Of a DNA stretch of 64,000 bases, positions 655 to 35,852 are shown in pieces. Below the pieces are notes generated by a model. That model was given only the letters and a program-made list of their open reading frames with translations. It did not search any database and was not told the DNA's origin. Made by a program: the position numbers and the translations under genes. This DNA is from Stygiolobus caldivivus. GTDB lineage: Archaea > Thermoproteota > Thermoprotei_A > Sulfolobales > Sulfolobaceae. The stretch covers positions 1,488,001 through 1,552,000 of the forward strand of contig NZ_AP024597.1 in NCBI RefSeq assembly GCF_019704315.1. Reading direction: 5' to 3'. The stretch's first letter is position 1, and every line of letters begins with the position of its first letter.

Positions 655-1917
655 ATGAAGACCTTATTCGCCCCCATAGGTGATCCTAAGAACTATAAGG
701 AAGTAGAATATGTGGTAGATGGCTCAGACCATCAATACCCCACAAAGGCGAGTTTCGACGCGATACGTAAAGCCTTAAGCATAGACCACGTAGTAGTCTA
801 CGCGGGGTTAAGCTTGTGTGACCTCACCAAGAACAGGAGTTACGAGGACTGTGTAAATTATGTCACAGGGTACGTAAAAGATAAGCTCAACATAAATGAC
901 ATAGATTTGATTGTAGCACCTAACGTCTTTGGGAACACGTTCGTCCAAGAAGACAGAAAGAACACGCTCTTCTTTAACTTCATATATTATAACACACTAA
1001 AGTTGCTGGAGGACAAAAAGCCTGACGAAGTATATATTGACATAACCCACGGGATAAACTACATGCCCTTGCTGGCTACGGACGCAATAAAGCTCGCCTC
1101 ATATACATACATGGTCAATGAGAAGGAGGCCCTCAATTTATCTACCTTTAATTCGGAACCTGTGGTACAAGGCGTTAGCGGGCCTTACCACATTACTAGA
1201 GTGTACGAGGAGAAGACGTCCACCCGGTTATCACTGCTACACGTTTTATCCCCCTTCTTATCTAAAGACCACAAGAACAAAGTGCAAAACAACGTGCTTA
1301 AGGGGGAGACACAGTGTGACGTAGACCTAATCTACTCGTCAGTGACAGCGCTATTCTCGGGCATATTCCCCTATATCGCCTTAATTAAGGGAGGGCTAGA
1401 ACAGTGCTTCAGGGCAGTGGAGGACAAGCTTAGCGTAGTGGACTACATGAACTTCAGGGTCAAGACCGAGGTCAGAGACGAAGGAGGGGCTAGTAGACTG
1501 GTATATAAGGATAAGTTACCGGTGGAGTTGAGCCACCTCCATTCGTTCCTCGATGTGGTGATGAAGGTAACGTCTAACGTAAAGGCAGGAGACGAAGTAA
1601 GGCTAAGCGATATAGAAGAGATGGCGAAAAAGTTTTCTGTTTCAGAGACCGTTAGGTCAATGGTCTTAAACGAGGTAGACCTGATGAAAAAGAGGGGTAT
1701 AGGAAAAGAGCCGAGGCTATACGCAGAAATACTGGCTAACAGCGGGCGTGAAGGGGACGAGCGTAGGAAAGCACAGAAGGAATGTGACTCTAATAGGAGA
1801 AACCTATACGCACATGCGGGCTTTGAACAGAACGTAACATACTTAAGGAAGGAGGGGGATGAGATCTACGTGAGCTATGGTAAGTGTTTAGAGAACGTCA
1901 AGAATCACCTAAAATAA
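655..1917 (+). CDS. csx1: Csx1-family CARF-HEPN ribonuclease (divergent)
   Basis: 420 residues with the layout of Csx1: an N-terminal Rossmann-like CARF domain (opening MKTLFAPIGDP, with the D-x-T-H-G-x-N motif at D129-N135, the region that contacts cyclic oligoadenylate in Csx1/Csm6 proteins) and a C-terminal HEPN RNase domain with R382-N383-L-Y-A-H387, the R-x4-H catalytic motif. In the family, cOA made by Cas10 activates non-specific RNA cleavage, a CRISPR-triggered abortive response. It stands alone about 10 kb from the cas10 operon with its own leaderless promoter. It is clearly diverged from the second Csx1 here (8623-10071), so they are probably not recent duplicates. Ligand ring size cannot be read from sequence. 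Confidence 0.85.
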   Translation: MKTLFAPIGDPKNYKEVEYVVDGSDHQYPTKASFDAIRKALSIDHVVVYAGLSLCDLTKNRSYEDCVNYVTGYVKDKLNINDIDLIVAPNVFGNTFVQEDRKNTLFFNFIYYNTLKLLEDKKPDEVYIDITHGINYMPLLATDAIKLASYTYMVNEKEALNLSTFNSEPVVQGVSGPYHITRVYEEKTSTRLSLLHVLSPFLSKDHKNKVQNNVLKGETQCDVDLIYSSVTALFSGIFPYIALIKGGLEQCFRAVEDKLSVVDYMNFRVKTEVRDEGGASRLVYKDKLPVELSHLHSFLDVVMKVTSNVKAGDEVRLSDIEEMAKKFSVSETVRSMVLNEVDLMKKRGIGKEPRLYAEILANSGREGDERRKAQKECDSNRRNLYAHAGFEQNVTYLRKEGDEIYVSYGKCLENVKNHLK

Positions 1918-7507: not shown

Positions 7508-8353
7508 TTACTTATCATTAAAATTTTCAACCCTCACTGACCTTTCCTCTCTTATCCTCTCCAATATAGTCATGACGGCTGTATCCAAGTCGAGGCTGTA
7601 CAGTGTTACTTTGGACTTATTAGGTATACTCAAAAGCTGTAATAGTGCGTCTTGTCCTGATATTATGCTCTCGTTATAGTTTACGCTGATCCTTTCTAAC
7701 TTACCGTTCTTGACCAGTACCTTTCCCATTACGCCTTCCCCTTCTATGATAATTACCCCGTACTGTATTTCGTCAACGTTCTTCAGCGCTCTCGGTATTA
7801 CCTCGCTCAGGGCCCCTTCCTCGGTATAGACGACCGTAGGTGTTATATCGAGTTGTCCGGTGTCGCTTGACTTAAAATAGTACTTTACATATGGGACGAT
7901 GTGATCCCTGACTATGTGTTCTGCTAGCGCAAAGGGTTGCCTGCCGAAAAACTTGTCGAAGACTGAGACCTCGTACTCAGCATTAGTGTAAACCTTGACT
8001 AAAGTCTCCAGAGACTTAACACTCTTCACTTCGAAGCTGATGTCCCATTTTAATTTCCCGTCATAACTCAGTCCCTTATAAACTATCCCAGAAGGCGTAT
8101 ATACTGGCCCTTCCATCTCCCCTAACGACGTGTACAGTCTGGTCTCAGGGGTACCAAAGATGTAGAGCACTCTGAACTTGTTGGAGAAACCTGATATGGA
8201 GGAAGGGGTCACGTAAGTCCGGGACTTCGGGTCGAACACTTGTAAAATACTTAGGTGCCCGAACACGCCTGACAGCAGGAACGGGTCTGATACCCAACGT
8301 ACTACCCTCTCTTTCGATGCTTGGACCGTAATTTCTCGAAAACACTTACTCAT
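7508..8353 (-). CDS. SRPBCC-fold protein with C-terminal PATAN-like domain
   Basis: 281 residues, soluble. The N-terminal ~170 residues look like a START/SRPBCC ligand-binding fold (opening ITVQASKERVVRWVSDPFLL, the usual beta strand-helix start with D-P at the first loop; DUF3211-like proteins of Sulfolobus are of this kind). The C-terminus (MGKVLVKNGKLERISVNYNE, then GQDALLQLL) resembles PATAN/DUF4388 regulatory domains. A second, shorter protein of the same architecture is at 34824-35435. Function unknown; a membrane-lipid or small-molecule sensor is possible. ATG start at 8353, monocistronic. Confidence 0.5.
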   Translation of the reverse strand: MSKCFREITVQASKERVVRWVSDPFLLSGVFGHLSILQVFDPKSRTYVTPSSISGFSNKFRVLYIFGTPETRLYTSLGEMEGPVYTPSGIVYKGLSYDGKLKWDISFEVKSVKSLETLVKVYTNAEYEVSVFDKFFGRQPFALAEHIVRDHIVPYVKYYFKSSDTGQLDITPTVVYTEEGALSEVIPRALKNVDEIQYGVIIIEGEGVMGKVLVKNGKLERISVNYNESIISGQDALLQLLSIPNKSKVTLYSLDLDTAVMTILERIREERSVRVENFNDK

Positions 8354-8622: not shown

Positions 8623-10071
8623 ATGGACTGTCTCGTCTATATAGCTGGCGATGTCATGAGCTACTCCACAATTGACTACGTATATCAGGGTAGGGTAAAG
8701 AGGTCTTTCTTTTCAGCACATGCTATTGCAAGGTTGACGAACCAAGGTAAGGTCGTAGCCTTACTCCCAGACAGCTTGTTATACTATAAAGACGATATCT
8801 CACAGTACAAGGAGATGTTAACCAAAGGCTATAGGAACATGATACTGTCCCGCCTTAACGAGGTAAATGTGGACTTCGAGACGAGGAAAGATGTAGAAGA
8901 GTTCGTAAACTCACTAGACATAAGGGTAATCCCCAACGTAGGGGTAGGGTCACCTTATCAGATAGACGATGACGCACACCTAATTAGGGAGCAGGGCCCT
9001 GACAATAGACCGAGGTATAAGAGGCACCAATATAAGTCCGAAAGGTCACCTGTCTTTATCTATAACGTAGTTTACTCGGTCTTTAAGGACTTAGCTGATA
9101 ACGGTTGTGAAAAGTTTACTGTAGACCTCACTCACGGTACTAACGTCCTGATCGCGATAACGCTGATAGCAGGTTCCCTATTTGACAGTACTTTTCTCAT
9201 GGCACCGGTCATCGGGAGCCCGGGTAGTGCTGTGACCGTAGTGGACGTAACCGATATTGTAAGGGCTTTCAAGGACTCTTATGGGGTCTACCTCTCAATA
9301 AAGTGGGTAGACGAGAGGTACTTCAGGGACTATAGGGAGAAGCTATTAAAGATTAACGTGAAAAACTACCAGAAAGAGAGAGACGTGTTGAAGAGTTTGA
9401 GGGGATTAGACCCGAGCATAGTTATGGAGTTACTAAGGAACCTGCGGTTGGGCTTCAGCGTCAACGCGCTTAAAGACATGGAGGATGTAACGGCGAACTT
9501 TCTCACGATTAAAGGAGACGTAGATAAGCTAAAAGAGTTCTACGAGTCGTGGTATGACCACCTGAGTCTGGAGAACGAGGGCAACATACTCCTTTCAAAC
9601 TTTTATTCTACTCTTACCGTCCAAGACTTAATCGTAAAGGGAGACGATATAGAGAGGTTAAAGGGGATATTGGACATCTATATAAGGGCACAGTACTATG
9701 ATAACGCGTTGTCACTCGGTAGAGAACTGGCGGTGGCGATATGTTTGGACAAGCATGGTGGAGGTGTGTTTGAAAGTAATGGTAAAGGTCATGGTGGACA
9801 GGAGAAGGCCCCCACACCTTACGACCAGTGTAATGAGGTCATTAATTCTCTAGTAGGAAAAGAAAAGGGGATAATAGACTCTAGGTTTGTGCAATACCGA
9901 AACATCTTGATGCACGGGGGGCTATCAGTAGACCTGAAGACCCAAATAAAGGATAAAAAGGTGGTAAATAAAAACCCCGAGAAAACTGACAATATCATAA
10001 GGTATGTCAGTGAAGGGTTAAAGAAGGACTTAGCTAAGATCGAAGAAATACTGAGCAAGGAAAACGTATAA
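8623..10071 (+). CDS. csx1: Csx1, cOA-activated CARF-HEPN ribonuclease (close to Sulfolobus Csx1)
   Basis: 482 residues that I can align by eye over the whole length with the structurally studied Saccharolobus Csx1 (N-terminus IAGDV..YS...Y, then FF.AHA, V.ALIPDSL). CARF motif D168-L-T-H-G-T-N174; catalytic HEPN motif R426-N427-I-L-M-H431 followed by GGLS. The relative forms a hexamer and cleaves RNA when bound to cyclic tetra-adenylate; the same is expected here. About 30 residues longer than the relative, mostly in the extra loop before the HEPN motif (GGGVFESNGKGHGGQEK). Own leaderless promoter. Natural partner of the Cas10 at 14161-16812. Confidence 0.93.
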   Translation: MDCLVYIAGDVMSYSTIDYVYQGRVKRSFFSAHAIARLTNQGKVVALLPDSLLYYKDDISQYKEMLTKGYRNMILSRLNEVNVDFETRKDVEEFVNSLDIRVIPNVGVGSPYQIDDDAHLIREQGPDNRPRYKRHQYKSERSPVFIYNVVYSVFKDLADNGCEKFTVDLTHGTNVLIAITLIAGSLFDSTFLMAPVIGSPGSAVTVVDVTDIVRAFKDSYGVYLSIKWVDERYFRDYREKLLKINVKNYQKERDVLKSLRGLDPSIVMELLRNLRLGFSVNALKDMEDVTANFLTIKGDVDKLKEFYESWYDHLSLENEGNILLSNFYSTLTVQDLIVKGDDIERLKGILDIYIRAQYYDNALSLGRELAVAICLDKHGGGVFESNGKGHGGQEKAPTPYDQCNEVINSLVGKEKGIIDSRFVQYRNILMHGGLSVDLKTQIKDKKVVNKNPEKTDNIIRYVSEGLKKDLAKIEEILSKENV

Positions 10072-11917: not shown

Positions 11918-12613
11918 TCATAACTTAAAGTCCCCTAACGGCCGGAACACAGCTCTCCTGGTTAGTGCGTCTACTTTAGCGTATTCGCTCTCCTTCCAGT
12001 CTAACATAGCGTAGCCTATCCCCCTGGACTTCCCTCCCCCTATAAACGTCCCCACTTCACTGAGGAACTTTAACGTCTTAAACCAGTCCCCTATCCTGTC
12101 CCTGACTATGACCTTAACGCTAACGCTACTCACGTTTATGATCTGTTCCCTGAATAAGTGCCTTTCCTTTGCCTTCTTAGTCTTCCTATCGATCACTACG
12201 TGTGCCCTATCGTTTATTCCTGAGCTAATAAGCGTGTCGGAAAAGGTCACTGCGGAGGCGAAGTACTCACTACCGTAAAGCCTCTCTACGGGGCAGTTCC
12301 ACATAGCTATAAACTTCTTCCTTTCCTTCTTTACTTTCTCGTTACTCTTATCGGCCAGCCCCTTAGCTTTCAACAGCTCGTCAAGGCTCCCGTCATCGAC
12401 CACGTTATCGTCTTCGTGTCCGTTAAAGTGGTGCGGGTCTGCTATTAAGACTTCTGTAGCCCTCCTGAATATACCCTTCCAGCTACTCCACGGTATTACG
12501 TAGTACTCGTCCATTTTCAGCGGGGTCAGCACGTTTATGTCCTCCTTACTACCCCCGACCCTCAACCCGTAGGGTGTACTGAACTTTAGTTTAAATAAGT
12601 AGACCTCCTTCAT
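11918..12613 (-). CDS. Type III-D Cas7-family RAMP (Csm3-like), last gene of operon
   Basis: 231 residues. RAMP landmarks: N-terminal LKFSTPYGLRVGGSKEDINV, the VIPWSSWKGIFRR segment (family PGSS-[FLW]-KG-x-[FLM]-R motif) near residues 39-51, and the glycine-rich FIGGGKSRGIGYAML near the C-terminus. D25 lies in the loop where Csm3 carries its target-RNA-cleaving Asp, so it may cut RNA. It starts with ATG overlapping the TAA of the preceding gene (TAATG), giving translational coupling. A backbone subunit binding crRNA/target RNA is the expected role. Confidence 0.82.
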   Translation of the reverse strand: MKEVYLFKLKFSTPYGLRVGGSKEDINVLTPLKMDEYYVIPWSSWKGIFRRATEVLIADPHHFNGHEDDNVVDDGSLDELLKAKGLADKSNEKVKKERKKFIAMWNCPVERLYGSEYFASAVTFSDTLISSGINDRAHVVIDRKTKKAKERHLFREQIINVSSVSVKVIVRDRIGDWFKTLKFLSEVGTFIGGGKSRGIGYAMLDWKESEYAKVDALTRRAVFRPLGDFKL

Positions 12614-13557
12614 TACGCCTTCACCTTCTGGAGTAATGACCCTAAGTCCTCTATCCCGAACATGAAGTTTAACCCTGCAGGCAGGACTTTATCGTATTCT
12701 CCCTTCTCTCTGACGAGTACCAACGTACCTTCGGTGAGCGTCCTGAACGAGGGCTTTTGCCCCGATACCTTATCGCTCGTAAACCAACCCACATAAGTGG
12801 AGGTACTCCCTATTATTACGCTCTTCCCGTCCACCTTACCTACGTCAAACAGCCTCTTTCCCAACAGTGAAGGTACACATTGTGACAAGCAGTAGGAGAG
12901 GCCTTGGGGTTCTGGTAAGTCTACCTCACCTACTACGTCCACCCTAGCCATCGAGTTAGTCCTGTTCTTACCCCTCCCCAACCTTATCTTACCTGACTTC
13001 ACTACGTCGATTACCTCGCTGGGCCTCGCCAGTGCCCACAACGTATCGAACTTCTTAAACTCATAAGCGAACAACATCTTGTGGTAAGACGAGGCTAAGA
13101 CCTTGTCTATGGCTACGTGCATTGAGATAAAGGACTCAGCTGTAAACCTGGAGTACCGGTTCACGTCTTTGCCTTCTTTTCTCTTTATTATAACACCTAT
13201 CGTCGGCTTCATCTCGTCGTCAAGTCTCAGGACATCCTTTAGGTGCGACCCTGACTCAAGTTCCTTTCCCTTTTCCGTTAACACACCCCTTACCTCTACG
13301 AAGTCACTGCTCTTTCTCCCTTCTGCCGGGGAAAAGTAATGTGACGGAGCTGAGTCCAGTGGGAACGCCGGTGAGGCGTAGAAACCTTGGTCGATTTTCC
13401 CTTTCTGGTAGTAGTACTCGGCGAGGAGGGCCCCCCTGAGCTGGGTCGCCGGTATATAGTCTGTAACAGAGAAGTAATAACTACCTATCCTCCTCGCTTG
13501 GGTCGTAATGTAACCGTTGACCGTTATCTTTAACAGTGAAAACTCCATTTCACTCAC
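12613..13557 (-). CDS. csx10: Csx10/Cas5-like RAMP of type III-D complex
   Basis: 314 residues. DYIPATQLRGALLAEYY (about 32-48) is a RAMP P-x-[ST]-x-[LIK]-[RK]-G-[AL] element, and IRLGRGKNRTNSMARV (about 193-208) is a glycine/arginine-rich loop typical of Csx10/Csm4 proteins, which cap the crRNA 5' handle next to Cas10. Placement among Cas7 genes right after cas10 and the lack of Cas7-type zinc cysteines support this. The start may be GTG 13557 (overlapping the previous stop) or ATG 13548. Csx10 is the marker of subtype III-D, but my subtype call rests on similarity by eye and gene order. Confidence 0.7.
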   Translation of the reverse strand: MSEMEFSLLKITVNGYITTQARRIGSYYFSVTDYIPATQLRGALLAEYYYQKGKIDQGFYASPAFPLDSAPSHYFSPAEGRKSSDFVEVRGVLTEKGKELESGSHLKDVLRLDDEMKPTIGVIIKRKEGKDVNRYSRFTAESFISMHVAIDKVLASSYHKMLFAYEFKKFDTLWALARPSEVIDVVKSGKIRLGRGKNRTNSMARVDVVGEVDLPEPQGLSYCLSQCVPSLLGKRLFDVGKVDGKSVIIGSTSTYVGWFTSDKVSGQKPSFRTLTEGTLVLVREKGEYDKVLPAGLNFMFGIEDLGSLLQKVKA

Positions 13558-14161
13558 CCCACATGTACTCTGACAAGGACGATACTATGTCCTTCATTTC
13601 TTGGTCACACTTCACCTTCTGACATATGTCGTCCTTTAACTTTACGTCCACCATTGCGTTCCTACCTATCCTCCAGAGACGTAAGGCTAAGACAGAGTAA
13701 AGTAGTAACTTCAACATCTTTTCACCGCAGGAGTCCCTGAAATAGACTGTCACTTCAAACTCAGTGTTAGGTGATACGACCTCCTGCGTAAATAGGGCGC
13801 CCTCTTCACTCCTCTGGGTCTTGTCGTCTATCTTCACCCTCGTCACCTTGTGCCTCTTCACGCTCGGGACGTTCACGGTCAAAGCAAAGCACCCCGAGTC
13901 CCGGTAGTCAGGGTAGCCGAAGAGCGTGCAGACGTCACACGGGCCTTTGCCCTTATGGGCCTTCTTAATCTCTTCAGGCTCTACCTGCCCGCAGGAGGAA
14001 TAACCGTCAGGTAAATAGTTATGGACGGCAGTCCTTAACACCCCCTTTATTGTTGACGGAGGCAGTACCACAGGGTTTAACGGTATATCTACTGCTCCTA
14101 TACTGCTCCCTCCTCCTACTGTTAGGGAAGTCAAGTTCTTTACTACTAGCCCGAACTCCAT
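13550..14161 (-). CDS. Cas7-family RAMP subunit (Csm3-like)
   Basis: 203 residues. SLTVGGGSSIGAVDIPLNPV (about 12-31) followed by LPPSTIKGVLRTAV matches the Csm3 pattern G-G-V-D-x-P...PGSS-[FLI]-KG-x-[FLM]-R; D25 is a candidate catalytic Asp for target-RNA cleavage. CDVCTLFGYPD is the zinc/Cys-containing thumb segment found in many Cas7 proteins. The ATG shares one base with the cas10 stop (TAATG), so the two are translationally coupled. Confidence 0.82.
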   Translation of the reverse strand: MEFGLVVKNLTSLTVGGGSSIGAVDIPLNPVVLPPSTIKGVLRTAVHNYLPDGYSSCGQVEPEEIKKAHKGKGPCDVCTLFGYPDYRDSGCFALTVNVPSVKRHKVTRVKIDDKTQRSEEGALFTQEVVSPNTEFEVTVYFRDSCGEKMLKLLLYSVLALRLWRIGRNAMVDVKLKDDICQKVKCDQEMKDIVSSLSEYMWGE

Positions 14162-16812
14162 TACCCTACACCTACCCTGAAGGTCTTGAGGACGAAGAAA
14201 TAATCGTAGAGTGGTATCCCTTTCAACGGGTCTTGACCATTTTTCTTAGCGACTAACCTCTTTAGCACTTCCTTATCGTAGCCGTCGTCACTCCTCGCTA
14301 TCTGCCTTAAGATATAAGCTAAGGTCGTCAAGTAACCGTTAGGGCTGTCCACCCTTACTTCGGCATAACCCACTACGTCTTCCAACACCCTCAGCTTCTC
14401 CCTAGCCTCCCTTCTGTCTTTGTCGCTATAGTAAAGGGCTACTACGTCTTTGAACTCATAGAGCCCCGCTAACTTAAGCAACTCCCTTACGCTCTCTACA
14501 TCATTAGAGACCGCCAAATAGGAAGGGCTGTTAGGCCTCTTGTACCTATGGATCTCAGACTCTACTACAGACCTACTGGCTAGTGTCGACGAAAATACCA
14601 TACACCCGATGCTGGTCTTGTTACCCTCAGGTCGTTTTATATCAGGCTTTATCTTACTCTCCTCCATCAACGCGTCGGTAGCTTGGAAGGCAAACTGGAT
14701 AGGGTGGTCTGGCTTGATACTGACCACCCCCACCTTAAATGTGAACCCGGTGAACTCCTTTGCCTTCTCAAAGAACTTGACCGCAAACGGCACAGCAACT
14801 ACTGATGGGACCAGAATGGTTATGTCGTCCCCGCCTATGTACAGTACGCCTGAGAGTACCCTGCTTGTCAGAGAGAGTTCGCCGTGTTGTCTTTCCACCT
14901 CAGCCTTAGCTAACTCTAACAACGTTTCGTAAAACGCTTTCTTTACCCCGTAATCTAATTTAAAGCTCCTGTCCACGTAGTCTGAAAACGTAGCGCTCGA
15001 GGAAAAGATCACACTACCCCAGTTCCCGTCAGCTTTGATCAAGGCCACGTATCGTGTGTCTTCTGGGGCCTTATACCCTGCTATGAACTCCATAGCGTAC
15101 TCGTTATAGTTATCGCCGAATAAGCACCTAGCGACCTCGCTAGGAGTTACCTTACCGACCTCTGCAGAGAGGGAATAGGTAGACCCCACTTTGCTCATGA
15201 AACCCCTGTTCTTGGACAGTTGTCTTATCTCGTAACATCTGTCGCAGAGTAACTTATAACCGTCAATATCCGGGAACTCCTTAGTCGCAGGCCTCACCCC
15301 GCAGTTCTCACAAGTCTTGTGCAGCCCTACCGAGAACACCTCCTCCTCAAAGTCCACTAAGTATTTCTCGCTGAAGGACTCCTTGATCTTTTCCCAGACC
15401 TCGTTGTAGTTAGATATGTAGTTATCATATGCGAACTCAGCAACGCTCACGCTCAGCTTTAGGTCCAAATCCCTCAGGGGCTTAAGGCCCTTAAACAGCC
15501 CCTTTATCCTTTCCTTACAGTTTACGTTTTCGGGGCAAATGTCACTCCTGACCACTATATACGAGTGGCCCCCGTACCCGCTGAGGAGTGCCTCTGCAGG
15601 TAGTCTGGACTTACCCTGTTTAGAGAACTCACTGTCCAATAACATAAAGGAGTAAACGGTGACCATGAAGTCAACTAACATGCTGGCAAAGGACATGTCC
15701 CTGAGCTTGGGGAAATTGGTAATGAACTTCTGTATACCGGGGAGGTCTATGTAGACGATATAGCCCAACAGCCTGCCTAAGCTTACTCTCTTTTCGACCT
15801 TTTCGACCTTCTCCGGTATAAAGGGGAAGAGCCTCGAGTTCTCGTTTTGTGCTATGCGTTCAGGTATTACGTAGCTCAGGATCTTCTTATATACTTCTTT
15901 TGTTACCTTTTCATACTTCTCCTTACCGAGCCTTGTAAAACAGTCATAGGACTCCTCCCCGCTCTTACTGAAACACTCTTTCACTTCCTTGCCGTACTCC
16001 ACGTCGTCCAAGGCCTTCATTACCAGTTCTGTTAGCCTGTCTGCACTTGAAGCTAAGCGGTCAGCCTTACTGACAATACTCTCAAAGTCACCGTGGTGGG
16101 ACGCAATGAGGTCCTTGACCTTGTTCAGCTTTATACAAGATTTATCGCTCTCTAATCTGTTCTGTACTTCTCTCATGATATCGATAGCCTCAGCGACGTG
16201 GTGACGCGGGTTAATTACCTTTCCTATGTCGTGGAGTAAAGAAGCTACCCTCAAGTAGTTTAAGTCTATCGAATAGGGCTGGAGGAGCCAAGAGGTTAAC
16301 GACGTTAACTGGACGTGAGATGCCAGAGATGTGAAGTTAAACCCTGGCCTAGTGTCTGCAGGTGTATTTAATAGGGCCTCATAAATTTCCAGTATCGATG
16401 AGAAGTAGCCCCTGACCAGTCCCTTCAGGACGTCGGCTTTCTCAAACTTCTCGAGCCTTTCAAAGACTTCCCTTAAGGGAGTGTCTTTGTCTATTGTGAG
16501 GTCTTGTACGTGCCTCGCGATACTGTAAACGAAGAAGTACTCGAAAGCTGTAGGTAGGTATTTGCTATCACCTTCTATAGGTGCGTATGACATAAACATA
16601 GGCAACTTGTACAGCATAGAGACCATGTCTGCGTATATGTCCATGGCCTTCTTCTCGTCGTTGCCCGCGAGCTCACATGAGACCAGAGCCATATGAGAGA
16701 GAGTGTCCACTATTTTCTCCTTCAAGTCCTGGTTGCCTTCGTATTGCTTACCTTTATCCCCGTCAAAGACTACTTTATACTCAGGTAAATTTAACTTACC
16801 CCTCAGGGTCAT
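14161..16812 (-). CDS. cas10: Cas10, type III effector large subunit with HD nuclease and GGDD cyclase
   Basis: 883 residues. HD domain: H194-D195 (SLLHDIGKVI), H204-H205, and SHHGDFE at H239-H240, so the ssDNase metal site looks complete. A zinc ribbon CENCGVRPATKEF...LLCDRCYEI divides the two Palm domains. The second Palm has G660-G661-D662-D663 (LYIGGDDITILV), the cOA synthase motif. The helical C-terminus (LAYILRQIARSDD, 831-843) resembles the small subunit of the same operon. Expected to make cyclic oligoadenylate on target-RNA binding and so switch on Csx1. It overlaps both flanking genes by a few bases. Confidence 0.95.
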   Translation of the reverse strand: MTLRGKLNLPEYKVVFDGDKGKQYEGNQDLKEKIVDTLSHMALVSCELAGNDEKKAMDIYADMVSMLYKLPMFMSYAPIEGDSKYLPTAFEYFFVYSIARHVQDLTIDKDTPLREVFERLEKFEKADVLKGLVRGYFSSILEIYEALLNTPADTRPGFNFTSLASHVQLTSLTSWLLQPYSIDLNYLRVASLLHDIGKVINPRHHVAEAIDIMREVQNRLESDKSCIKLNKVKDLIASHHGDFESIVSKADRLASSADRLTELVMKALDDVEYGKEVKECFSKSGEESYDCFTRLGKEKYEKVTKEVYKKILSYVIPERIAQNENSRLFPFIPEKVEKVEKRVSLGRLLGYIVYIDLPGIQKFITNFPKLRDMSFASMLVDFMVTVYSFMLLDSEFSKQGKSRLPAEALLSGYGGHSYIVVRSDICPENVNCKERIKGLFKGLKPLRDLDLKLSVSVAEFAYDNYISNYNEVWEKIKESFSEKYLVDFEEEVFSVGLHKTCENCGVRPATKEFPDIDGYKLLCDRCYEIRQLSKNRGFMSKVGSTYSLSAEVGKVTPSEVARCLFGDNYNEYAMEFIAGYKAPEDTRYVALIKADGNWGSVIFSSSATFSDYVDRSFKLDYGVKKAFYETLLELAKAEVERQHGELSLTSRVLSGVLYIGGDDITILVPSVVAVPFAVKFFEKAKEFTGFTFKVGVVSIKPDHPIQFAFQATDALMEESKIKPDIKRPEGNKTSIGCMVFSSTLASRSVVESEIHRYKRPNSPSYLAVSNDVESVRELLKLAGLYEFKDVVALYYSDKDRREAREKLRVLEDVVGYAEVRVDSPNGYLTTLAYILRQIARSDDGYDKEVLKRLVAKKNGQDPLKGIPLYDYFFVLKTFRVGVG

Positions 16813-16981
16813 ACCTCACCACCATCGAATAGTACTCAATACCAAACTTGTTTGCCTTGAACTTTACCTCCCCGTTAGCCTTTTCTTCCCGGTCGACCTC
16901 AACTACGGTGAGGCATTCACTACTCTCCTTATCAAGTTCCACAGAGAGGTCGTACTTAATGCAGACCTTCATGCCTACCAC
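16796..16981 (-). CDS. Unrecognised 61-aa protein inside the type III-D operon
   Basis: 61 residues from ATG 16981, or 58 from ATG 16972. It overlaps the end of the upstream RAMP gene and, by 17 bp, the start of cas10, so it is wedged in a strictly coupled operon and must be real. Acidic/basic mixed, predicted mainly beta (VCIKYDLSVELD, LTVVEVDRE, EVKFKANKFG). No cysteines forming a knuckle, no membrane segment. The related Saccharolobus III-D operon also has a very small gene next to cas10, as I recall. It could be an extra subunit or a regulator; I cannot assign a family. Confidence 0.65.
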   Translation of the reverse strand: MVGMKVCIKYDLSVELDKESSECLTVVEVDREEKANGEVKFKANKFGIEYYSMVVRYDPEG

Positions 16982-17775
16982 TCCTCGTTATAGTCGAACG
17001 GGTTAAACTTCTTCATAAACTCGTTTAACGCATTTACAAACTCCACCTTCGCTGCTGGTAATGAAAACCTGACCCTCCCGAAACGCCTATCAGAGAACTT
17101 AAACCTACCCATTAACATCACCTTCCCTTCCAACTTATTGCCCTTCAACCTGAAACCGAGGCCGTAAAGTAACATCCCTAGGTCTACGGGCTTTAATGAC
17201 CGGTAGACTACTTTCCCCCCGAACTTGGAGCCCTTAATAGCACTCTCATAGTATTGACCGTTAACGTTTACGAAGTCCGTCTTCCCTTGGGCCATGACGA
17301 GGTCTGTGAATGATACCCTACTGGCCAGCCCCGAGTTACCCAGTAAGTCACAGACCGGGCACACCCTTTCAGGGAACCTATCAGAGTACTTGGGCTTGGG
17401 GTTCCTGAATATCTTCTTATAAGTATTTGAGACCGTGTTTGAATTCCTTGATACTACATAGCACGACTCTCTGATAGACAGTTCCAGTCTAGTCCTCACC
17501 AGGCCCTTTATAGTAGACCCTGGAATAACTACCTTACCGAGGTACTTATTCATCTCGTGGGTCGCAGGGGAAAAGTAGCCGGAGACGTCCGGTACTGTCC
17601 CTTGTAGTGCGCTCTCCACGAGCTTGTCTATGTCGTCTAAGGGGCGCAATATCTCGACGTCATAGACCCCGCTACCCACATGGAGGTAGTCTGAGACGAC
17701 CTCCATCTCTATGTCTAAGGCCCCTTCGAGCCCGGGGGCGTTCCTCTCAGTGTATGGGGTACGGTACCTTTGCAC
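16975..17775 (-). CDS. Cas7-family RAMP (Csm3/Csm5-like) subunit
   Basis: About 266 residues. [16 protein letters not shown] followed later by [18 protein letters not shown] is the RAMP PGSS-x-KG-x-x-R motif, displaced C-terminally by an ~40-residue insertion ([17 protein letters not shown]). [20 protein letters not shown] is the Cys-containing segment shared with other Cas7 proteins of this operon. Possibly the distal (Csm5-like) cap. Start uncertain: GTG 17775 is preferred, a TTG at 17793 extends it by six codons; both overlap the preceding gene. Confidence 0.78.
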
Positions 17776-18583
17776 CGTTAAACGCCTCCACAAAGGGCTT
17801 CACTTGTTCAAAGAACTTGTCCCCTTCCCCCTTTATCTCGTCAGGAGCGGAGACCTTAACGTCTTCGTCGCCTATCTTCTTCTCTCCGAGGTCTAAAAGC
17901 CTCAGTTCACCGAACTTAACGAAGCCGAACCCCCTGCTCTTATGCCCTCCTATCTGGGTCACCCCATCGTGGATAGTCTTCATTATGGTCAATAAGTACC
18001 CTATAGTGTAGTTGGGCAAGTTAGTCCCAATGAACTTAAATGTAAACTTCGAGCCCGGTTCGACGAATTCTACTTGGACTAACGCGCCCCTAGCAGCAGC
18101 GCCTTCAGTCCTGCTTATAGCTACCATAGTCCTCGTCCCAAGTTTGAAGTCTATCGCCCTCGAGTCCAGGAACTTCACGGCACCTATAACGCTCATGGTA
18201 CCGAATACCTTGCAGTTGAGACATGTGTAGTCCCAAAATATCTTCATAGCCTCTGCCACGTCGCGGGAAAGGCTGCGTTGGAAGTCGTCGTACTTCCTGA
18301 AGTTGTTCAGGCAATAGTCCTTGCCGACACCGCTACACACTGTCACGTTTTTGCTCCTTAATATCCTCTCCCCCGTCGACCTGAAGACCCCCTTCCATGA
18401 CGACCCGGGGATGACCGGGGTACCGCCGGCGTCCTTTAATACCGTATCCCTTACTGTGCTTGCTGGGTCAAAACCCCCAGCTTTCCCTACCCCGATCCTG
18501 AGTGGGGATTGGAGCTCTAAAACTCCTTCAACTACCGTCTGCCTCTTGATCACGTCCTTCCTGATAAGGGTGTAGTCTACCAT
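17747..18583 (-). CDS. Cas7-family RAMP (Csm3-like) subunit
   Basis: 278 residues. [23 protein letters not shown], then [16 protein letters not shown] (about 56-71): the complete Csm3 motif set. D46 in TVRDTVLKD matches the catalytic loop of Csm3; D39 is the alternative. [21 protein letters not shown] is the zinc-binding thumb, and [15 protein letters not shown] is the Gly-rich C-terminal loop. Starts with ATG 18583, overlapping the preceding stop by 7 bp. It resembles its upstream neighbour closely enough to suggest an old duplication of backbone subunits, a hallmark of III-D operons with several Cas7 copies. Confidence 0.85.
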
Positions 18584-19311
18584 GACTTTACCACCTCCAT
18601 AAGGTCCAGTTTGGTGGACTTCATGAGGTCTGGTAGCTTACGGACTTCCACTTCACCTGAGACGAGTTTCACCAGCCCGAACCCCGCACTCTTCTTTGCC
18701 CCCATAAAAATACCGTCTGTTATCAGGGTCTTTAGGACATACCTCATAACTTCGACTGTCTTCTTTCTCCACTCCTCGGTCTCACCGTTTACTATGTCCA
18801 AGTTGTAGAGGAACATCGTGAAGTTGAACGTTGCGTTAGGGTCTACAAAGTCCAGTGTGTAAAGGTGGCCCGGTAACTGGCCCCCGAAGACCCTGTTTAT
18901 CGTCACCATAGTCCTCTGTGAAATCGTGTAGTCTTCAGCTACCGAGTCCAGTATGTATACCCTTGAAGAGAGGTCTTTAAACCCGAAGATTATGCAAGGG
19001 ATACAAAACTTAGCTCCTTTTTCGTCTTCAACGCAACTGGGGCAGTCGTCATCGTCTAGGTCACATACGACATACTTAGGGTCGTTCCACGACTTCACGT
19101 AGGCTTCAGCTAGGCTGCGGAATGCCCCCTTAAAGCTCGACCCCGGGATGACGGGTTTCCCGTTGACCCTCAAAATGGGGTTGTCCGTAGCGTCGATAAA
19201 GCTCTGTGACTTACCGTAACCTATCCTCAGGGGGGTCTCGTTCTTCACTTTTCCGCTGATTCTCACAACGCTCTTAATCACGTCTAAATCGTAGCAGGGG
19301 TTAGTGGCCAT
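18577..19311 (-). CDS. Cas7-family RAMP (Csm3-like) subunit
   Basis: 244 residues. [20 protein letters not shown], then [18 protein letters not shown] (about 54-71); D43 (ATDNPILR) aligns with the Csm3 catalytic Asp of V-D-x-P-[VI]-[LIR]-R. Zinc-type cysteines: [11 protein letters not shown] and [21 protein letters not shown]. Gly-rich end [15 protein letters not shown]. Starts one base after the small-subunit stop. Backbone subunit expected to cut bound target RNA at regular intervals. Confidence 0.85.
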
Positions 19312-19312
19312 A

Positions 19313-19726
19313 TCACATCATCTTTGCCACTTCGTTGACCAACTTCTGGAAAGTGTCTACCCCTTTCAGATTCGTGACGTTTATGTTGAGGCCAGCCAGG
19401 GTCTCGTAGATCCACTTAACGTAGCCTATGAGCTCAAGGGCCCTATTTACGTCTTCGGGAGTATTCCCCATATCCTTTAGCGCAGAAAGTAGGAGTTTCC
19501 CGGTATTCTTGTCTATTTCCCCCCTACCCATCTGCCTCAAGATGTAAGCCAAAAGGTCTCTTATGTTCTTCCTGCTTTGCATATAGGTGAGGAGGTTATT
19601 GATATTACTAATATCCACTGCAGGCCTGGGCGTCCCTCTACCCCCTTGTTGCGGGGTCAGCGCAGATATCGCTATCTTGGTAGCTATGTCCAGCAGGTCT
19701 GTGTTCGCCTTCACGGCTTGAGACAT
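19313..19726 (-). CDS. cas11: Type III small subunit (Csm2/Cas11-like), first gene of operon
   Basis: 137 residues, all-helical, Gln/Gly/Pro-rich linker at 26-36. [12 protein letters not shown] (59-70) nearly repeats the Cas10 C-terminal LAYILRQIARSD, the known relation between small subunits and the Cas10 D4 domain. Small subunits line the filament and help hold target RNA. It is the promoter-proximal gene, translated from a leaderless message, so probably made in the highest amount, which fits multi-copy stoichiometry. Confidence 0.8.
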
Positions 19727-19951: not shown

Positions 19952-20188
19952 ATGCTAGTAAGGGTAGACGATAAAGGGAGGGTATACTTACCCAAGGAAA
20001 TAAGGGAAAAAGCCGGGTCGAAGGAGTTTTACCTCGTTGAACTCCCTACCGGTATAATGCTAATCCCCAGGCTGGAAGACCCCGTAAAAGCGTTAGGGGA
20101 AGAAGGGAAGAAGTTACCTGACGTAAGCGTGAAGGAGTTAAAGAGGGTTGCCAGAGAAGAGGCTGAGAGGGAACTTGGTCTACGCTGA
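19952..20188 (+). CDS. vapB: AbrB/SpoVT-type antitoxin (VapB)
   Basis: 78 residues. MLVRVDDKGRVYLPKEIREKAG is the swapped-hairpin AbrB DNA-binding domain (family V-D-x-K-G-R-[IV]-x-[LI]-P-K-x-[IV]-R). The acidic/basic C-terminus (residues 47-78, ELKRVAREEAERELGLR) would wrap the toxin. Overlaps the downstream PIN gene; typically represses its own promoter. Located between the type III-D operon and the nuclease/Cas6-like operon. Confidence 0.88.
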   Translation: MLVRVDDKGRVYLPKEIREKAGSKEFYLVELPTGIMLIPRLEDPVKALGEEGKKLPDVSVKELKRVAREEAERELGLR

Positions 20189-20534
20189 TACTGACTTCTT
20201 CCTCGCGTTACTAAAGGAGAGGGACTGGCTGAAGGACAAAGCCCTTAGCCTGCTTAACGAGCATAAAGGTGAAATAACTACCTCCATGACCACTTTTATT
20301 GAGTTGATGTTATTATGCAAAAAGTTCGGCCTAGACCCCGTAAAAGTCACGTTAGCTGTCATGGAGATAACGAGGTACTTTGATGAAAGGGTACTAAAGG
20401 CGGCGGTACTGATATCGCAAGGTATGGGCGTATTTGACGCTTTCCACGCCGCGTATTCCGGCGGAAGTATAATAAGTTCAGACCACGTATTTGACGAGTA
20501 CGGGTTTGAGAGGGTGAAGTTAGAAGACCCGTGA
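20175..20534 (+). CDS. vapC: PIN-domain toxin (VapC)
   Basis: About 119 residues from TTG 20175 (LVYADTDFFLALLKERD); an ATG at 20148 would add nine residues but overlaps the antitoxin by 41 bp and starts before the usual V-Y-A-D-T-D beginning. Acidic PIN residues are visible: D in YADTDFF, E in TFIELMLL, D in GVFDAFHAAY, D in ISSDHVFDE. PIN toxins are Mg-dependent RNases held inactive by VapB. Confidence 0.85.
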   Translation: MVYADTDFFLALLKERDWLKDKALSLLNEHKGEITTSMTTFIELMLLCKKFGLDPVKVTLAVMEITRYFDERVLKAAVLISQGMGVFDAFHAAYSGGSIISSDHVFDEYGFERVKLEDP

Positions 20535-20679
20535 AGAACAAGAGGAAACTTTATTTTTTATGACCAAATTTTTGTGTAGCCCCGATGAATTGAATGAACT
20601 AGTCGAAAACGTTACGGCTAACACGATGATTAATATAGTTAACTTCCCATAATGAGTCTTTTTTACGTGAGCATCAAAA

Positions 20680-20687
20680 TTTATATA
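20680..20687 (+). promoter_or_regulatory. Probable promoter upstream of the nuclease/Cas6-like operon
   Basis: TTTATATA within an A/T-rich tract is the best TATA match in 20535-20886. Transcription would begin near 20712, giving a 175-nt leader before the nuclease ATG (which has a Shine-Dalgarno-like GGGTGAT 8 nt upstream), or including the 47-codon frame at 20724. Confidence 0.35.
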
Positions 20688-20723
20688 CTCATATGGTAAT
20701 AATTCTAATTTAGTGATAAATCA

Positions 20724-20867
20724 ATGGTAAGTCGAAACGTATTCAATATGTACATTTCAAGCATTTTTCTAACTTTAACCCAAGTATATAGAACTATCGC
20801 GAGTTATTTAAGTAAAGGACGCTCTAAGGTGCTGATAAGCAAACGTGAGTATAGGGACTCTTGCTGA
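20724..20867 (+). CDS. Possible 47-aa small ORF in leader of nuclease operon
   Basis: ATG at 20724 opens 47 codons (MVSRNVFNMYISSIFLTLTQ...), ending 19 bp before the nuclease start. Composition is mixed hydrophobic then basic (SKGRSKVLISKREYRD). It follows the predicted promoter and may be a leader peptide or a small protein, but there is no ribosome-binding site and chance is possible. Confidence 0.2.
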   Translation: MVSRNVFNMYISSIFLTLTQVYRTIASYLSKGRSKVLISKREYRDSC

Positions 20868-20886: not shown

Positions 20887-21582
20887 ATGGTATTTATCGC
20901 TGAGTATAATTTATCAAACCACCTTTCTCTATTTAAAGAAAGAAAGATTAATGTCGATAAGAACGTCCCTTACTACGCAAAGAAAGCCGCAGTCAAGACC
21001 AAACACCCACTGAATAACACATACGCAAAATTCTTACCGGAATGTGCCACAACTGCAAGGAGGAAGGGCTCAGGGGTCTACTTTAACTGGTCTGCTGAAG
21101 ACGCAGTATTAGACGTCTTGGCTAAAGACTACGAGAGGAGAGACACGGGTGTACGTATATTTACGGATATACGATTATTTTACGACGATATTAAATATAC
21201 CCCTGACGCAGTAATACTGAACGCCGCGTGCAGCCGTAAGGCTAAATACATTATAGAAGTAAAGACGACGATGAGGCCTGAAAAGGGGAACAGGAGCCCG
21301 TCGAAGAAGTACTGCATTTTAAAGATAGGGGCACTGCAAGCTCTGAGGAACGCATCGGCCCTAGTAAAGGCTGGGGTGGTAGATGAGGTATTACCCAAGG
21401 TGGTGTATGCCGAGTTTATACCGGTCAAATACGACCCAGCAAGGAGGATGATGAGGATAGTGCTCATGAACCCAGAGGTCTACTCCGTAGGACTAGATGA
21501 TGTGTTTAAGGTCGATAGAGAGCTTGCCGACATCATTTACGGTATTTTGGGGGGAGACAGAGATGACTTACTTACTCGCTGA
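20887..21582 (+). CDS. PD-(D/E)XK-type nuclease next to Cas6-like gene
   Basis: 231 residues. Restriction/RecB-type core visible: E71 (NWSAEDAVLDVL), D107 in YTPDAVIL, E124-V-K126 in KYIIEVKTT, and Q151 in LKIGALQALRNAS, i.e. E...PD...ExK...Q, the order found in Cas4/RecB-like nucleases. Unlike Cas4 it has only three scattered Cys (C53, C115, C143) and no iron-sulfur cluster pattern. The N-terminus (1-60) is basic and unassigned. The Cas6-like gene overlaps its end by 20 bp, so co-translation is certain. Likely a DNA nuclease; I know no described CRISPR system with this exact trio. Confidence 0.65.
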   Translation: MVFIAEYNLSNHLSLFKERKINVDKNVPYYAKKAAVKTKHPLNNTYAKFLPECATTARRKGSGVYFNWSAEDAVLDVLAKDYERRDTGVRIFTDIRLFYDDIKYTPDAVILNAACSRKAKYIIEVKTTMRPEKGNRSPSKKYCILKIGALQALRNASALVKAGVVDEVLPKVVYAEFIPVKYDPARRMMRIVLMNPEVYSVGLDDVFKVDRELADIIYGILGGDRDDLLTR

Positions 21583-22261
21583 AGTCGTAGTTACCCCCAC
21601 GACCTCTGCTATTATACCGCCTTTTACGTCTAAGGTGGGTAAATCGTTAGTCCTCAGTCGAAAGGTCACAATATCACCCCTAAGGGTAGGTAACACGTAT
21701 CTGGTCAGGTATTCTACCGTACCTTACTTCATGGAGGTCGAAGCAGGGAAGGAGTACTCCTTCGATGTAGGCGGGGACTACTACGACGTCATAGACGCTC
21801 TGAAAGGCTTGGAAAGGAAGAAGGTGTTCAACACCGTATGGGAGGTCGTGGACGTGAAATTGAGGGAGGTGGAGTTTGAGTTTAAGGATAAAATAAAGGT
21901 GAGCGTTAGGACACCCGCACTCATAGCAGACCCTCTAAAGAAGTCGAAGAAGAAAAGGTTTACCAACCTCTTCGCGTTCGTGTTCGCGGTGAACTTCATG
22001 GACCACTTGGGCCTCACTAGAGAGGAGTTCAGGGGCCTTATCCTCGAGGTAGAGGGCAAAGTAAGGGAAGAACCCTCTAAGGTTTGGTATGAGACCGTGA
22101 TTTATGCGGGGAAAAAGGTGGTGGGACTGGTCGGAGAATTACGTTATACACTTCTGGAGGAGGACGAGAGGGTTAAAGGTGCACTGGAGAACGCTATAGC
22201 TAAAGGGATAGGGAGTTCAAGGAGGAACGGCTTCGGAAGAGTGACCGTGGAGAGTGAGTAA
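21563..22261 (+). CDS. Cas6-like RAMP protein (putative CRISPR RNA endoribonuclease)
   Basis: 232 residues from ATG 21563 (MTYLLAEVVVTPTTSAIIPP); an upstream start at 21497 would add a non-family 22 residues inside the nuclease gene. Features of Cas6: N-terminal beta strand then IPPFTSKVGKSLVLS (family P-x-x-G..[LV]-x-[KR]-x-[LA]-[LIV]), and the C-terminal glycine-rich loop GIGSSRRNGFGRVTVE (about 217-232). The only His is H139 or so in MDHLGLT, not in the N-terminal active-site area, as in some Sulfolobus Cas6 proteins that use Lys/Arg. It may process crRNA for the nearby III-D complex, or bind RNA for the linked nuclease. Confidence 0.6.
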   Translation: MTYLLAEVVVTPTTSAIIPPFTSKVGKSLVLSRKVTISPLRVGNTYLVRYSTVPYFMEVEAGKEYSFDVGGDYYDVIDALKGLERKKVFNTVWEVVDVKLREVEFEFKDKIKVSVRTPALIADPLKKSKKKRFTNLFAFVFAVNFMDHLGLTREEFRGLILEVEGKVREEPSKVWYETVIYAGKKVVGLVGELRYTLLEEDERVKGALENAIAKGIGSSRRNGFGRVTVESE

Positions 22262-22582
22262 ATGGGTTATAGGTGTCCCGAATGTAAAAAGGTATTTGAT
22301 GACTTTAAAGACCTCAGGATCCACTACCGAAAAAGCCATATGGACGGTAGGTGTAGTATATGCGGCCCGGACGGTAAGAAGTTCAGTAATATAATTAGGC
22401 ATTACCACATGAAAACCGATGACTTCCCACACTTGGTGGTCTTGTGCATTATTGAAGGTTACGATTTCATTGAGGACAAAAAATACAGGAAAATAGTTAG
22501 AAGCTTAGTAGAGACAGTACTAGAAGAAAGGAACGCTATGTTGTTTGAAATAATCTTCAATAAGGGGGACAGAGGTCGTTGA
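22262..22582 (+). CDS. C2H2 zinc-finger protein, third gene of nuclease/Cas6-like operon
   Basis: 106 residues; ATG follows directly after the Cas6-like stop (TAAATG). YRCPECKKVFDDFKDLRIHYRKSH is a classical C2H2 finger (C5, C8, H21, H26) and GRCSICGPDGKKFSNIIRHYH a second one. The C-terminal 45 residues are helical and charged (EDKKYRKIVRSLVETVLEE). Such small fingers are common in Sulfolobales chromosomes and viruses and usually bind DNA or RNA. Tight coupling to the nuclease and RAMP genes suggests a shared complex or a regulator of the operon. Confidence 0.7.
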   Translation: MGYRCPECKKVFDDFKDLRIHYRKSHMDGRCSICGPDGKKFSNIIRHYHMKTDDFPHLVVLCIIEGYDFIEDKKYRKIVRSLVETVLEERNAMLFEIIFNKGDRGR

Positions 22583-28467: not shown

Positions 28468-28634
28468 GTTTTACGTAAAACTATTACGTCTACATGTTTT
28501 TACTAATTAGGTGTATGATATTAATACCCCGCGGTTGGGAGTCGGGAAATCTTGAACATTAACGTAAGGTAAGGTACAAGTACCCACGTAAGTGTTTAGG
28601 GTAATACCCAGCCGTTACCATTACCAATAAGTTC
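28468..28634 (+). repeat. Dispersed diverged repeat, copy 1
   Basis: Begins with the palindrome GTTTTACGTAAAAC and continues through GTTTTTACTAATTAG, GAGTCGGGAAATCTTGAAC, TAAGGTACAAGTAC and CCGTTACCA. The same order of blocks is seen at 35683-35852. Its first ~55 bp also match the minus strand at 6075-6129 next to the decayed tnpB. Frames read like damaged protein (KVRYKYPRKCLG versus KTKYKHRRNYLG in copy 2), so it is probably a transposon fragment. Confidence 0.55.
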
Positions 28635-29124: not shown

Positions 29125-29685
29125 TATTATTAAACACCCACGTCAACTTTTAAGCTTACTTGTCACGGGTTTAAATACCTGTTAAACATACACTAACGAC
29201 GTGTTACCGTTGCTGGTAACTAAGGGGTGAGGACCTCATAACGTTTTACGTAAAACCACGACGTATCTTAATCAGTAATTACGAAGGCTTACATAGCAGA
29301 GCCGTCGGGGCTCTGAAATTCCATAAGGTCAGAATAAAGCCCCAGTATTTGGTGTTTGAGGAAAATTTTGGTGCTGCTGACTTCTCCGACAAACCCTATT
29401 AGGGCCTTAGCAGTCGAGGTTGACAAACCGCCAACCTATTTAGCCTGCTGGACTATGCGTACTGTACAATTATCCATCCTTTAAAAAGACTATAAGTACC
29501 CCCTTCCCTCTACAGTGGGTTTTAACACTTAGTTTTAGAGCTGTCCTGCCCTTCACACCTGATTAAGCTCACCTTCAAGTTTATAAGACTTGTAGGAAGA
29601 GTTCTTACCTCTGGGCTTCACACGCTCTACTTGTACCTCGCGGTCTATAATCGTCATAGACCGCGTAGGTGTCTGCGTTGACCTT
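29125..29685. other. Gene-free region with several inverted repeats
   Basis: Contains GTTTTACGTAAAAC (29243-29256, the same palindrome as in the dispersed repeat), a 7-bp stem CAGAGCC/GGCTCTG (29297-29315), a piece resembling an IS end (29380-29415), and a 10-bp perfect stem at 29639-29665. No coding frame. It looks like a landing site for small elements that have since decayed. Confidence 0.5.
29639..29665. repeat. Perfect 10-bp inverted repeat with 7-nt loop
   Basis: CGCGGTCTAT, loop AATCGTC, ATAGACCGCG. It lies 21 bp behind the stop of the PIN gene. It could be a transcription terminator-like hairpin, a binding site or an element end; no T-run follows on the minus strand. Confidence 0.6.
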
Positions 29686-35682: not shown

Positions 35683-35852
35683 GTTTCACGTAAAATCCTT
35701 ACGTCGACGTGTTTTTACTAATTAGACATGTAATATTATATATTTCATGGTCATGAGTCGGGGGTTCTTGAATATTTAACTAAGACTAAGTACAAGCATA
35801 GACGTAATTATTTAGGACAAATTCCGTTACCACGATTTTTTCAATAAGCGCT
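35683..35852 (+). repeat. Dispersed diverged repeat, copy 2
   Basis: Starts GTTTCACGTAAAAT and keeps the same block order as copy 1 at 28468-28634 (GTTTTTACTAATTAG, GAGTCGGGGGTTCTTGAA, TAAGTACAAG, CCGTTACCA). Roughly two-thirds identical by eye. The minus-strand frame 35786-35980 overlapping it has no family features and is not called as a gene. Confidence 0.55.

Follow-up and report, generated by a model that had tools for sequence, protein, structure and literature searches.

A crRNA-like RNA predicted to control the nuclease–cas6 operon of a type III-D CRISPR system in Sulfolobaceae

The type III-D immune system of Sulfolobaceae probably uses a guide RNA of its own for self-control, because the pairing pattern of this RNA is probably one that only a CRISPR effector complex would leave. 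The window analysed is a 64,000-nucleotide stretch of Stygiolobus caldivivus DNA, located at 1.49–1.55 Mb of a 2.96-Mb single-contig genome. It contains a nuclease ORF, cas6 and a C2H2 zinc-finger gene in that order on the plus strand, and the gene of a small crRNA-like RNA about 300 bp upstream of this trio. The RNA belongs to a family previously known from a single example, ncRNA60 of S. solfataricus. The RNA family, its linkage to the nuclease–cas6 operon, the complementarity between each guide and the leader of its cognate operon, and a six-base period in that complementarity are observed here. It is very likely that the III-D complex carrying the ncRNA60-type RNA binds and cuts its own nuclease–cas6 mRNA without activating Cas10. 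Negative feedback would be the natural reading of the effect, because the target operon encodes Cas6, the maker of the RNA, along with the nuclease. The features are listed in Table 1.

Table 1. Features of the window at the III-D locus, with positions counted from the first letter of the window
Feature	Position	Strand	Basis or detail
Further III-D effector genes, block	11918..14161	-	profile matches
Csm3-like RAMPs, two more	13550-14161, 11918-12613	-	
Cas5_IIId	12613-13557	-	E=2.2e-128
Type III-D effector genes, block	14161..19311	-	ORFs and profile matches
Cas10	14161-16812	-	
Small ORF inside III-D effector block	16796-16981	-	
Csm3-like RAMPs, three	18577-19311, 17747-18583, 16975-17793	-	
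Csm2/Cas11 small subunit, type III-D	19313..19726	-	PADLOC PDLC01503, E=1.6e-45
Putative TATA-like element TTTATTTTTTA of the ncRNA60-type RNA gene	20550..20560	+	predicted from sequence
ncRNA60-family crRNA-like RNA gene	20574..20664	+	two-part pattern, alignment
Repeat-like segment of the RNA	20574-20596	+	predicted Cas6 cut 20588/20589
8-nt handle ATTGAATG of the RNA	20589-20596	+	
Guide of the RNA	starts 20597	+	
Conserved RNA 3' end CCCATAATGAGTCTTTTTT	20646-20664	+	
Putative TATA-like element TTTATATA of the nuclease–cas6–C2H2 operon	20680..20687	+	predicted from sequence
Predicted guide target in the nuclease–cas6 operon leader, sense strand	20711..20752; core 20727-20747	+	
Predicted PD-(D/E)XK (Cas4/RecB/lambda-exonuclease-like) nuclease, 231 aa	20887..21582	+	E71, D107, E124, K126, Q151
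Predicted Cas6 crRNA endoribonuclease, Cas6-3/Sso1422 family, 232 aa	21563..22261	+	ATG at 21563; profiles
C2H2 zinc-finger protein, 106 aa, lineage-specific	22262..22582	+	

An earlier note on this DNA had described the three genes as an operon in which nuclease and cas6 overlap by 20 bp and cas6 abuts the C2H2 gene, and a check of the ORFs returned exactly the same coordinates and gene order; the RNA gene lies outside the interval that the note covered. The adjoining minus-strand cluster encodes Cas10, Cas5_IIId (Csx10), Csm2/Cas11 and five Csm3-like RAMPs, which places it in type III-D. The protein that the note had called a RAMP proved to be a true Cas6 (PADLOC Cas6 E=8.6e-81; Pfam Cas6_N above cut-off), and its C-terminal glycine-rich loop GIGSSRRNGFGR is almost invariant in the alignment. 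It belongs to the III-D system because the three further Cas6 genes of the same genome each sit at other cas loci, and it is the predicted dedicated crRNA processor of the III-D cluster. The suggestion that the genes serve the nearby III-D complex is supported. Very probably the trio is the crRNA-processing operon of that system, feedback-controlled by the crRNA-like RNA upstream. The note had also raised the idea that the RAMP delivers the nuclease; nothing points to Cas6 as a carrier, and this idea is rejected.

Members of the window Cas6 family with 40–70% identity are present in 13 genomes at intact III-D loci, degraded copies occur in several more, and all relatives found are within Sulfolobales. 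A Cas6 scan of named genomes added one partial locus, members of a more distant Cas6 family had no III-D linkage, and a sequence search against solved structures found no relatives. Sso1422 (Cas6-3) of S. solfataricus belongs to the same Cas6 family and locus; its downstream gene encodes a winged-helix protein, whereas that of the window encodes a C2H2 protein. Sso1422 is an endoribonuclease that acts on repeats, and its K47A mutant is inactive (PMC4041471). In the alignment, K47 appears to correspond to K27 of the window Cas6. The claim that the trio was undescribed is partly right, since the Sso1422/Cas6-3 family has been assayed and the position of cas6 ahead of crenarchaeal csm loci has been published (PMC4041471, PMC3807668).

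Several other genes were seen around this locus. A MazE/AbrB-type antitoxin and a PIN-domain toxin (VapBC-like) are encoded as a pair at 19952-20534 (+), between the III-D effector operon and the RNA gene, and III-D cassettes with vapBC pairs have been noted earlier (PMC4390879). Csx1 (CARF and HEPN) is located at 655-1917 (+) and a second Csx1-CARF protein at 8623-10071 (+); both are likely cOA-activated effectors of the III-D system. A 56-nt repeat with a ACGTAAAA-type palindrome occurs at 28468-28523 and 35683-35738 in copies that are 80% identical and 7.2 kb apart, with a partial copy at 29238-29264. Elsewhere in the same genome (L085 and L089, C1 about 1.424-1.463 Mb), reading of ORFs by eye indicated what may be a cas set of type I-B style that includes a Cas6 of its own, flanked by arrays of another repeat and by cas4-cas1-type genes, which is unusual for Sulfolobales.

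The one published example, ncRNA60, comes from S. solfataricus. It adjoins sso1421 and contains one AB-repeat-like segment, at which Cas6-3 (Sso1422) cleaves it; about 1.5% of the reads from CSM are ncRNA60, vs 0.07% of those from CMR (PMC4041471). Its describers assigned it no function and treated it as a single RNA, mentioning neither a family nor a target, a pairing with the leader or a period of six bases (PMC4041471). One locus in the present set is that of S. solfataricus, as positions 7770-7795 of it (L051) are identical to the published 26-nt ncRNA60 precursor at 26/26 nt. The window RNA has the handle, the guide, the 3' end and the position beside a III-D cas6 operon that place it in the same family, and it has in common with the Cas6-3-cut, CSM-loaded ncRNA60 both the single repeat-like segment and a place beside a nuclease ORF (sso1421) and cas6 (cas6-3, sso1422).

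Relatives of the RNA were searched for with a two-part pattern, consisting of the ATGAATTGA handle region and, further on, AATGA(G)..TTTTTT. An ncRNA60-type RNA lies upstream of the nuclease–cas6 operon in 13/13 intact III-D/cas6 loci including the window, where the pattern matched at 20585-20664, and in most of them it is preceded by a TATA-like layout. All have a single repeat-like segment, an ATTGAnnn crRNA-like handle, a variable guide and a conserved AATGAG..TTTTTT end. Where the cas6 operon has decayed, the RNA is missing too. A sequence-only model run on 31 Sulfolobaceae genomes returned these 13 RNAs at E<=1.2e-8, the next match stood at 1.6e-4, and no further hit rose above array repeats. 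Recovery of the 13 follows from how the model was built, and the information lies in the absence of the RNA elsewhere. Rfam held no relevant family. The window RNA gave only chance matches to phages, and no second copy of it was found in its own genome. Single-strand folding showed that the RNAs are no more stable than shuffled sequences in 12/13 cases, with a variable and unstructured middle part, which makes it unlikely that the family acts through RNA structure as a folded regulator.

On the sense strand, the leader of each nuclease–cas6 operon is complementary to the guide encoded at the same locus; when a locus was searched with its own guide, this leader came first or close to first among the sites in most cases. 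With shuffled guides as the RNAduplex control, the Fisher p was 2e-11. For the window, G150, G119 and G102, the RNAduplex ranks taken by themselves were weak, and these cases were resolved by an ungapped, six-base-aware analysis; gapped scores are diluted because unpaired positions recur at guide bases 6, 12, 18, 24, 30, 36 and 42. When guides and leaders were swapped between loci with the sixth positions scored as neutral, the cognate combination was the best in 13/13 rows and 13/13 columns. Uniform scoring gave 11/13 rows and 10/13 columns, and neutral scoring of a control phase instead gave 7 and 8 of 13. Cognate scores averaged 18.4 vs 9.1 for non-cognate ones, and permutation of the cognate pairing never reached the observed result under either scoring (0/100,000). 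The 13 loci are related and the counts are not fully independent; nonetheless, the guides differ strongly. With sixth positions neutral, the leader site ranked 1–3 among all sites on both strands in all 13 loci (about 20 kb each; 64 kb for the window). The window pairing taken alone had p=0.0005 and rank 2 on both strands of its 64 kb under this scoring. Under uniform scoring it had p=0.04 and rank 28 in 64 kb and was among the weaker of the 13, so that it stands out clearly only when the six-base rule is applied. No complementarity signal was found on the antisense strand of the leader, and the leader of the cas11 operon was not matched as a guide target (1/13).

The six-base period was obtained with uniform scoring and no period assumed. 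The unpaired fraction was 0.60 at positions 6n and 0.05–0.12 at the other phases, while 156 non-cognate pairs gave a flat 0.16–0.19; none of 5000 random sets was as extreme. Guide bases 1–6 pair at chance level (0.35 vs 0.41), bases 7–36 excluding 6n are paired at 0.82, and pairing fades past about 39–42. At many positions of the core, every one of the four Watson-Crick pair types is found in one species or another. Both sides had changed with pairing kept in 756 cases vs 415 with one side changed, a count for which the register was picked by the six-base rule and which is separate from the uniform-scoring analysis that carries the period itself. Pairing of guide and leader is strongly supported by this covariation between two separate transcripts. 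An inverted duplication, in which RNA gene and leader would be relics of one duplicated segment whose similarity decays without function, would fit their spacing within about 300 bp in most loci and a sequence resembling the handle that G078 carries close to the target on the other strand. It is extremely improbable, as decay gives neither a six-base period nor matched changes in 13 diverged loci. Pairing of the RNA with the leader as a plain antisense RNA, acting on translation or stability without an effector and with an incidental handle, is in keeping with the long complementarity at some loci, but it is very improbable, since a free duplex would show no sixth-base gap in register with a crRNA handle and ncRNA60 is present in the CSM complex (PMC4041471).

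In the reading preferred here, by contrast with free antisense pairing, the gaps are those of a CRISPR effector complex. The skipping of each sixth base is a hallmark of Cas7-backbone complexes. In the type III-B complex of T. thermophilus every sixth base is excluded from pairing, production of cOA requires pairing of the first seven guide bases, the sixth excepted, and is lost when they are mismatched, whereas RNA cleavage persists, and a seed lies towards the 3' part of the guide (PMC8376896). The Sso-IIID complex cleaves bound RNA at 6/12-nt spacing (PMC4770243). If III-D obeys the III-B rule, the natural guides would by analogy be suited to bind and cut their own mRNA without raising an alarm. 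Complementarity of the target 3' flank to the 8-nt handle, which would be a 'self' signal, was suggestive in a few loci and not significant overall.

Action at the RNA level is suggested by the strand of the target and the type of effector. Repression could also operate on DNA, with the RNA-loaded III-D complex or a handle-sharing type I Cascade blocking the promoter in the manner of CreR RNAs. Cascade likewise skips every sixth base, CreR works on promoters (PMC12737573), and the targets sit close behind TATA-like boxes. Against these points, only the mRNA-complementary strand is matched in 13/13 loci, pairing is lacking at guide bases 1–6, where the Cascade seed begins, and ncRNA60 is enriched in CSM, an RNA-targeting complex. 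DNA-level repression is accordingly regarded as quite improbable. Targeting of the mRNA leader has to accommodate the fact that Sulfolobus mRNAs are mostly leaderless, which counts against a leader target. The leaders and promoters are predicted, with the putative operon transcript start placed from TATA-like boxes, and at two loci, G150 and G119, the annotated start codon is overlapped by the target, so that the leader interpretation hinges there on where translation truly begins. A 47-codon ORF (MVSRNVFNMY...) at 20724-20867 (+) begins inside the guide target of the window and may be a possible leader peptide or a chance ORF.

The proposed cycle would begin with transcription of the short RNA (about 20580-20664 in the window) from its own promoter, which would also be active in the window organism. 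Cas6 would then cut the single repeat-like segment to leave the 8-nt handle, and the RNA would be loaded into the III-D (Csm) complex, two steps that the literature describes for S. solfataricus only. The guide would pair with the 5' leader of the nuclease–cas6(–C2H2) mRNA in 5-nt blocks split by each sixth base. The complex would bind and cut this mRNA and the levels of nuclease and Cas6 would drop, and the unmatched guide bases 1–6 would keep Cas10 off and prevent autoimmunity. Repression would ease once the complexes are taken up by an invader or by large numbers of crRNAs.

The first gene of the targeted operon encodes a putative nuclease. The residues named by the earlier note (E71, D107, E124-x-K126 and Q151) coincide exactly with the invariant columns, five in all, when 13 motif-related ORFs, 12 of them from III-D loci, are aligned. 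An ORF of 171–245 aa with the E / D / ExK / Q signature lies directly upstream of cas6 in 12/13 intact loci, and at the thirteenth, in G102, it is reduced to a 93-aa remnant. The family is fast-evolving: the ORFs are so diverged from the window protein, at 13–40% identity, that BLAST retrieves just one of them. When the window nuclease was compared profile against profile with Sso1421-type nucleases, the result was E=0.015 and a probability of 3%, so that homology is not proven by sequence; the two have in common the motif set, the position and the predicted fold. The AF2 models have pLDDT 81.6 and pTM 0.82 for the window protein and pLDDT 85.2 and pTM 0.82 for the S. solfataricus counterpart. 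The best structural matches were DinG (Z 8.8), MGME1 (7.0) and Cas4 SSO0001 (6.6) for the former, and Cas4 SSO0001 (Z 9.8) followed by LHK-Exo and lambda exonuclease (8.3–8.4) for the latter. The models are of the Cas4/RecB/lambda-exonuclease type, with moderate Z values that speak to fold only and not to function, and they bear out the nuclease-type fold proposed earlier. The predicted protein is placed in the PD-(D/E)XK superfamily by its alpha/beta core with the catalytic residues E, D, ExK and Q.

Core motifs and overall fold are like those of Cas4 (SSO0001, 4ic1) and other RecB/lambda-exonuclease-like nucleases. Unlike Cas4, the window nuclease is linked to a III-D cas6 rather than to cas1/cas2, and its alignment contains no conserved cysteines of the Cas4 Fe-S set, as the earlier note had stated. 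No cas1/cas2 was recognised near the trio, and the cas4-cas1-type genes at the type I-B-like locus, read by eye, are about 60 kb off. Assignment to Cas4 is rejected on the grounds of the missing Fe-S cysteines and the lack of cas1/cas2 association. A nuclease paralogue of 195 aa with the same five residues was seen in the same genome at L057:8636-9223 (C1 about 900.6-901.2 kb), where it adjoins a peroxiredoxin-like gene and has no cas genes nearby.

The fast evolution of this nuclease, as first gene of the targeted operon, would suit a guard or addiction module, in which Csm and the RNA silence a harmful nuclease whose synthesis, once the complex disappears or an anti-CRISPR blocks it, would stop the infected cell; CreTA and CrePA work by the same logic (PMC12737573). 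Such a module is unlikely, as Cas6, which is required for immunity and for making the RNA, shares the operon, G102 retains RNA and cas6 despite its nuclease remnant, and G042 and G096 lost cas6 and RNA and survive with the remaining III-D cluster. A combined scheme, in which a dedicated guide would make III-D self-limiting without Cas10 activation and the nuclease would be a guard effector released upon inhibition of the complex, is also doubtful, if slightly less so.

The third gene of the trio is not conserved in the same way. The neighbourhood comparison upheld the nuclease–cas6 part of the trio, and the zinc finger was not constant; the complete trio was found in just one other genome, G078, of a different genus. 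A C2H2 protein occupies this place in the window and G078, and in other genera the place is vacant or filled by a winged-helix protein (genus g5). The zinc finger is a local variant of the nuclease–cas6 operon and not a constant member, and its product is a probable DNA-binding regulator. Of the two fingers described earlier, one classical C2H2 (CxxC...HxxxH; zf-C2H2 E=1e-6) passes the Pfam cut-off and the second (CxxC...HxxxxH) is seen by eye only. In G108, of the same genus as the window, the C2H2 gene persists in a decayed III-D locus (L041:179-12000) with cas11 and RAMP fragments and inserted large genes of 997 aa (methylase-like) and 1143 aa, from which cas6, nuclease and RNA are gone. 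Winged-helix proteins with a possible CARF-like N-terminal part lie right after cas6 at L042:16799-17452, L049:9159-9776, L051:9588-10190 and L084:8206-8808. Small proteins of about 87–120 aa are recurrent in III-D loci, between nuclease and cas6 (L045:8997-9296, L049:10483-10755, L050:15224-15487, L052:9869-10150, L084:9512-9820) or after cas6 (L083:10050-10412), and a Pfam search with one of them gave no match.

CreR RNAs are crRNA-like autoregulators of types I and V-A that act at promoter DNA (PMC12737573). The III-D RNA is similar to them in its degenerate repeat and in a guide able to pair partly with the region that controls its own cas operon, both of which were found for the window RNA. 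CreR represses together with a Cas effector, and the six-base period would imply an effector context here as well. In CreR, promoter DNA is bound with Cascade or Cas12a, whereas the III-D RNA would act with a type III effector on a sense-strand leader target; its Cas10-activating segment is unmatched, and its target operon encodes nuclease and Cas6. Filing it as a CreR was rejected because the locus is III-D and the target is the sense strand of the leader; it may be said only to work like one. CreTA and CrePA are alike in that a crRNA-like guide represses a neighbouring gene (PMC12737573), but the III-D target operon includes cas6, and a toxin role of the nuclease is putative. No type III crRNA-like autoregulator and no target for ncRNA60 were found in the open-access literature.

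Overall, the analysis proposes what an RNA abundant in S. solfataricus CSM does, and how this can be tested directly; when the RNA was found there in 2014, its role was called unclear. If the proposal is true, crRNA-like self-regulation would extend to type III, at the RNA level, through a natural guide design in which RNA is targeted while Cas10 activation is avoided. A self-limiting guide together with a guard nuclease, if true, would be the type III equivalent, working on RNA, of CreR and CrePA alike. A fast-evolving nuclease family placed under guide control raises the question of whether it is an effector, a guard, or an enzyme that processes crRNAs or spacers. The six-base period in guide–target covariation can serve as a general fingerprint by which natural targets of Cas7-type effectors can be recognised from sequence alone.
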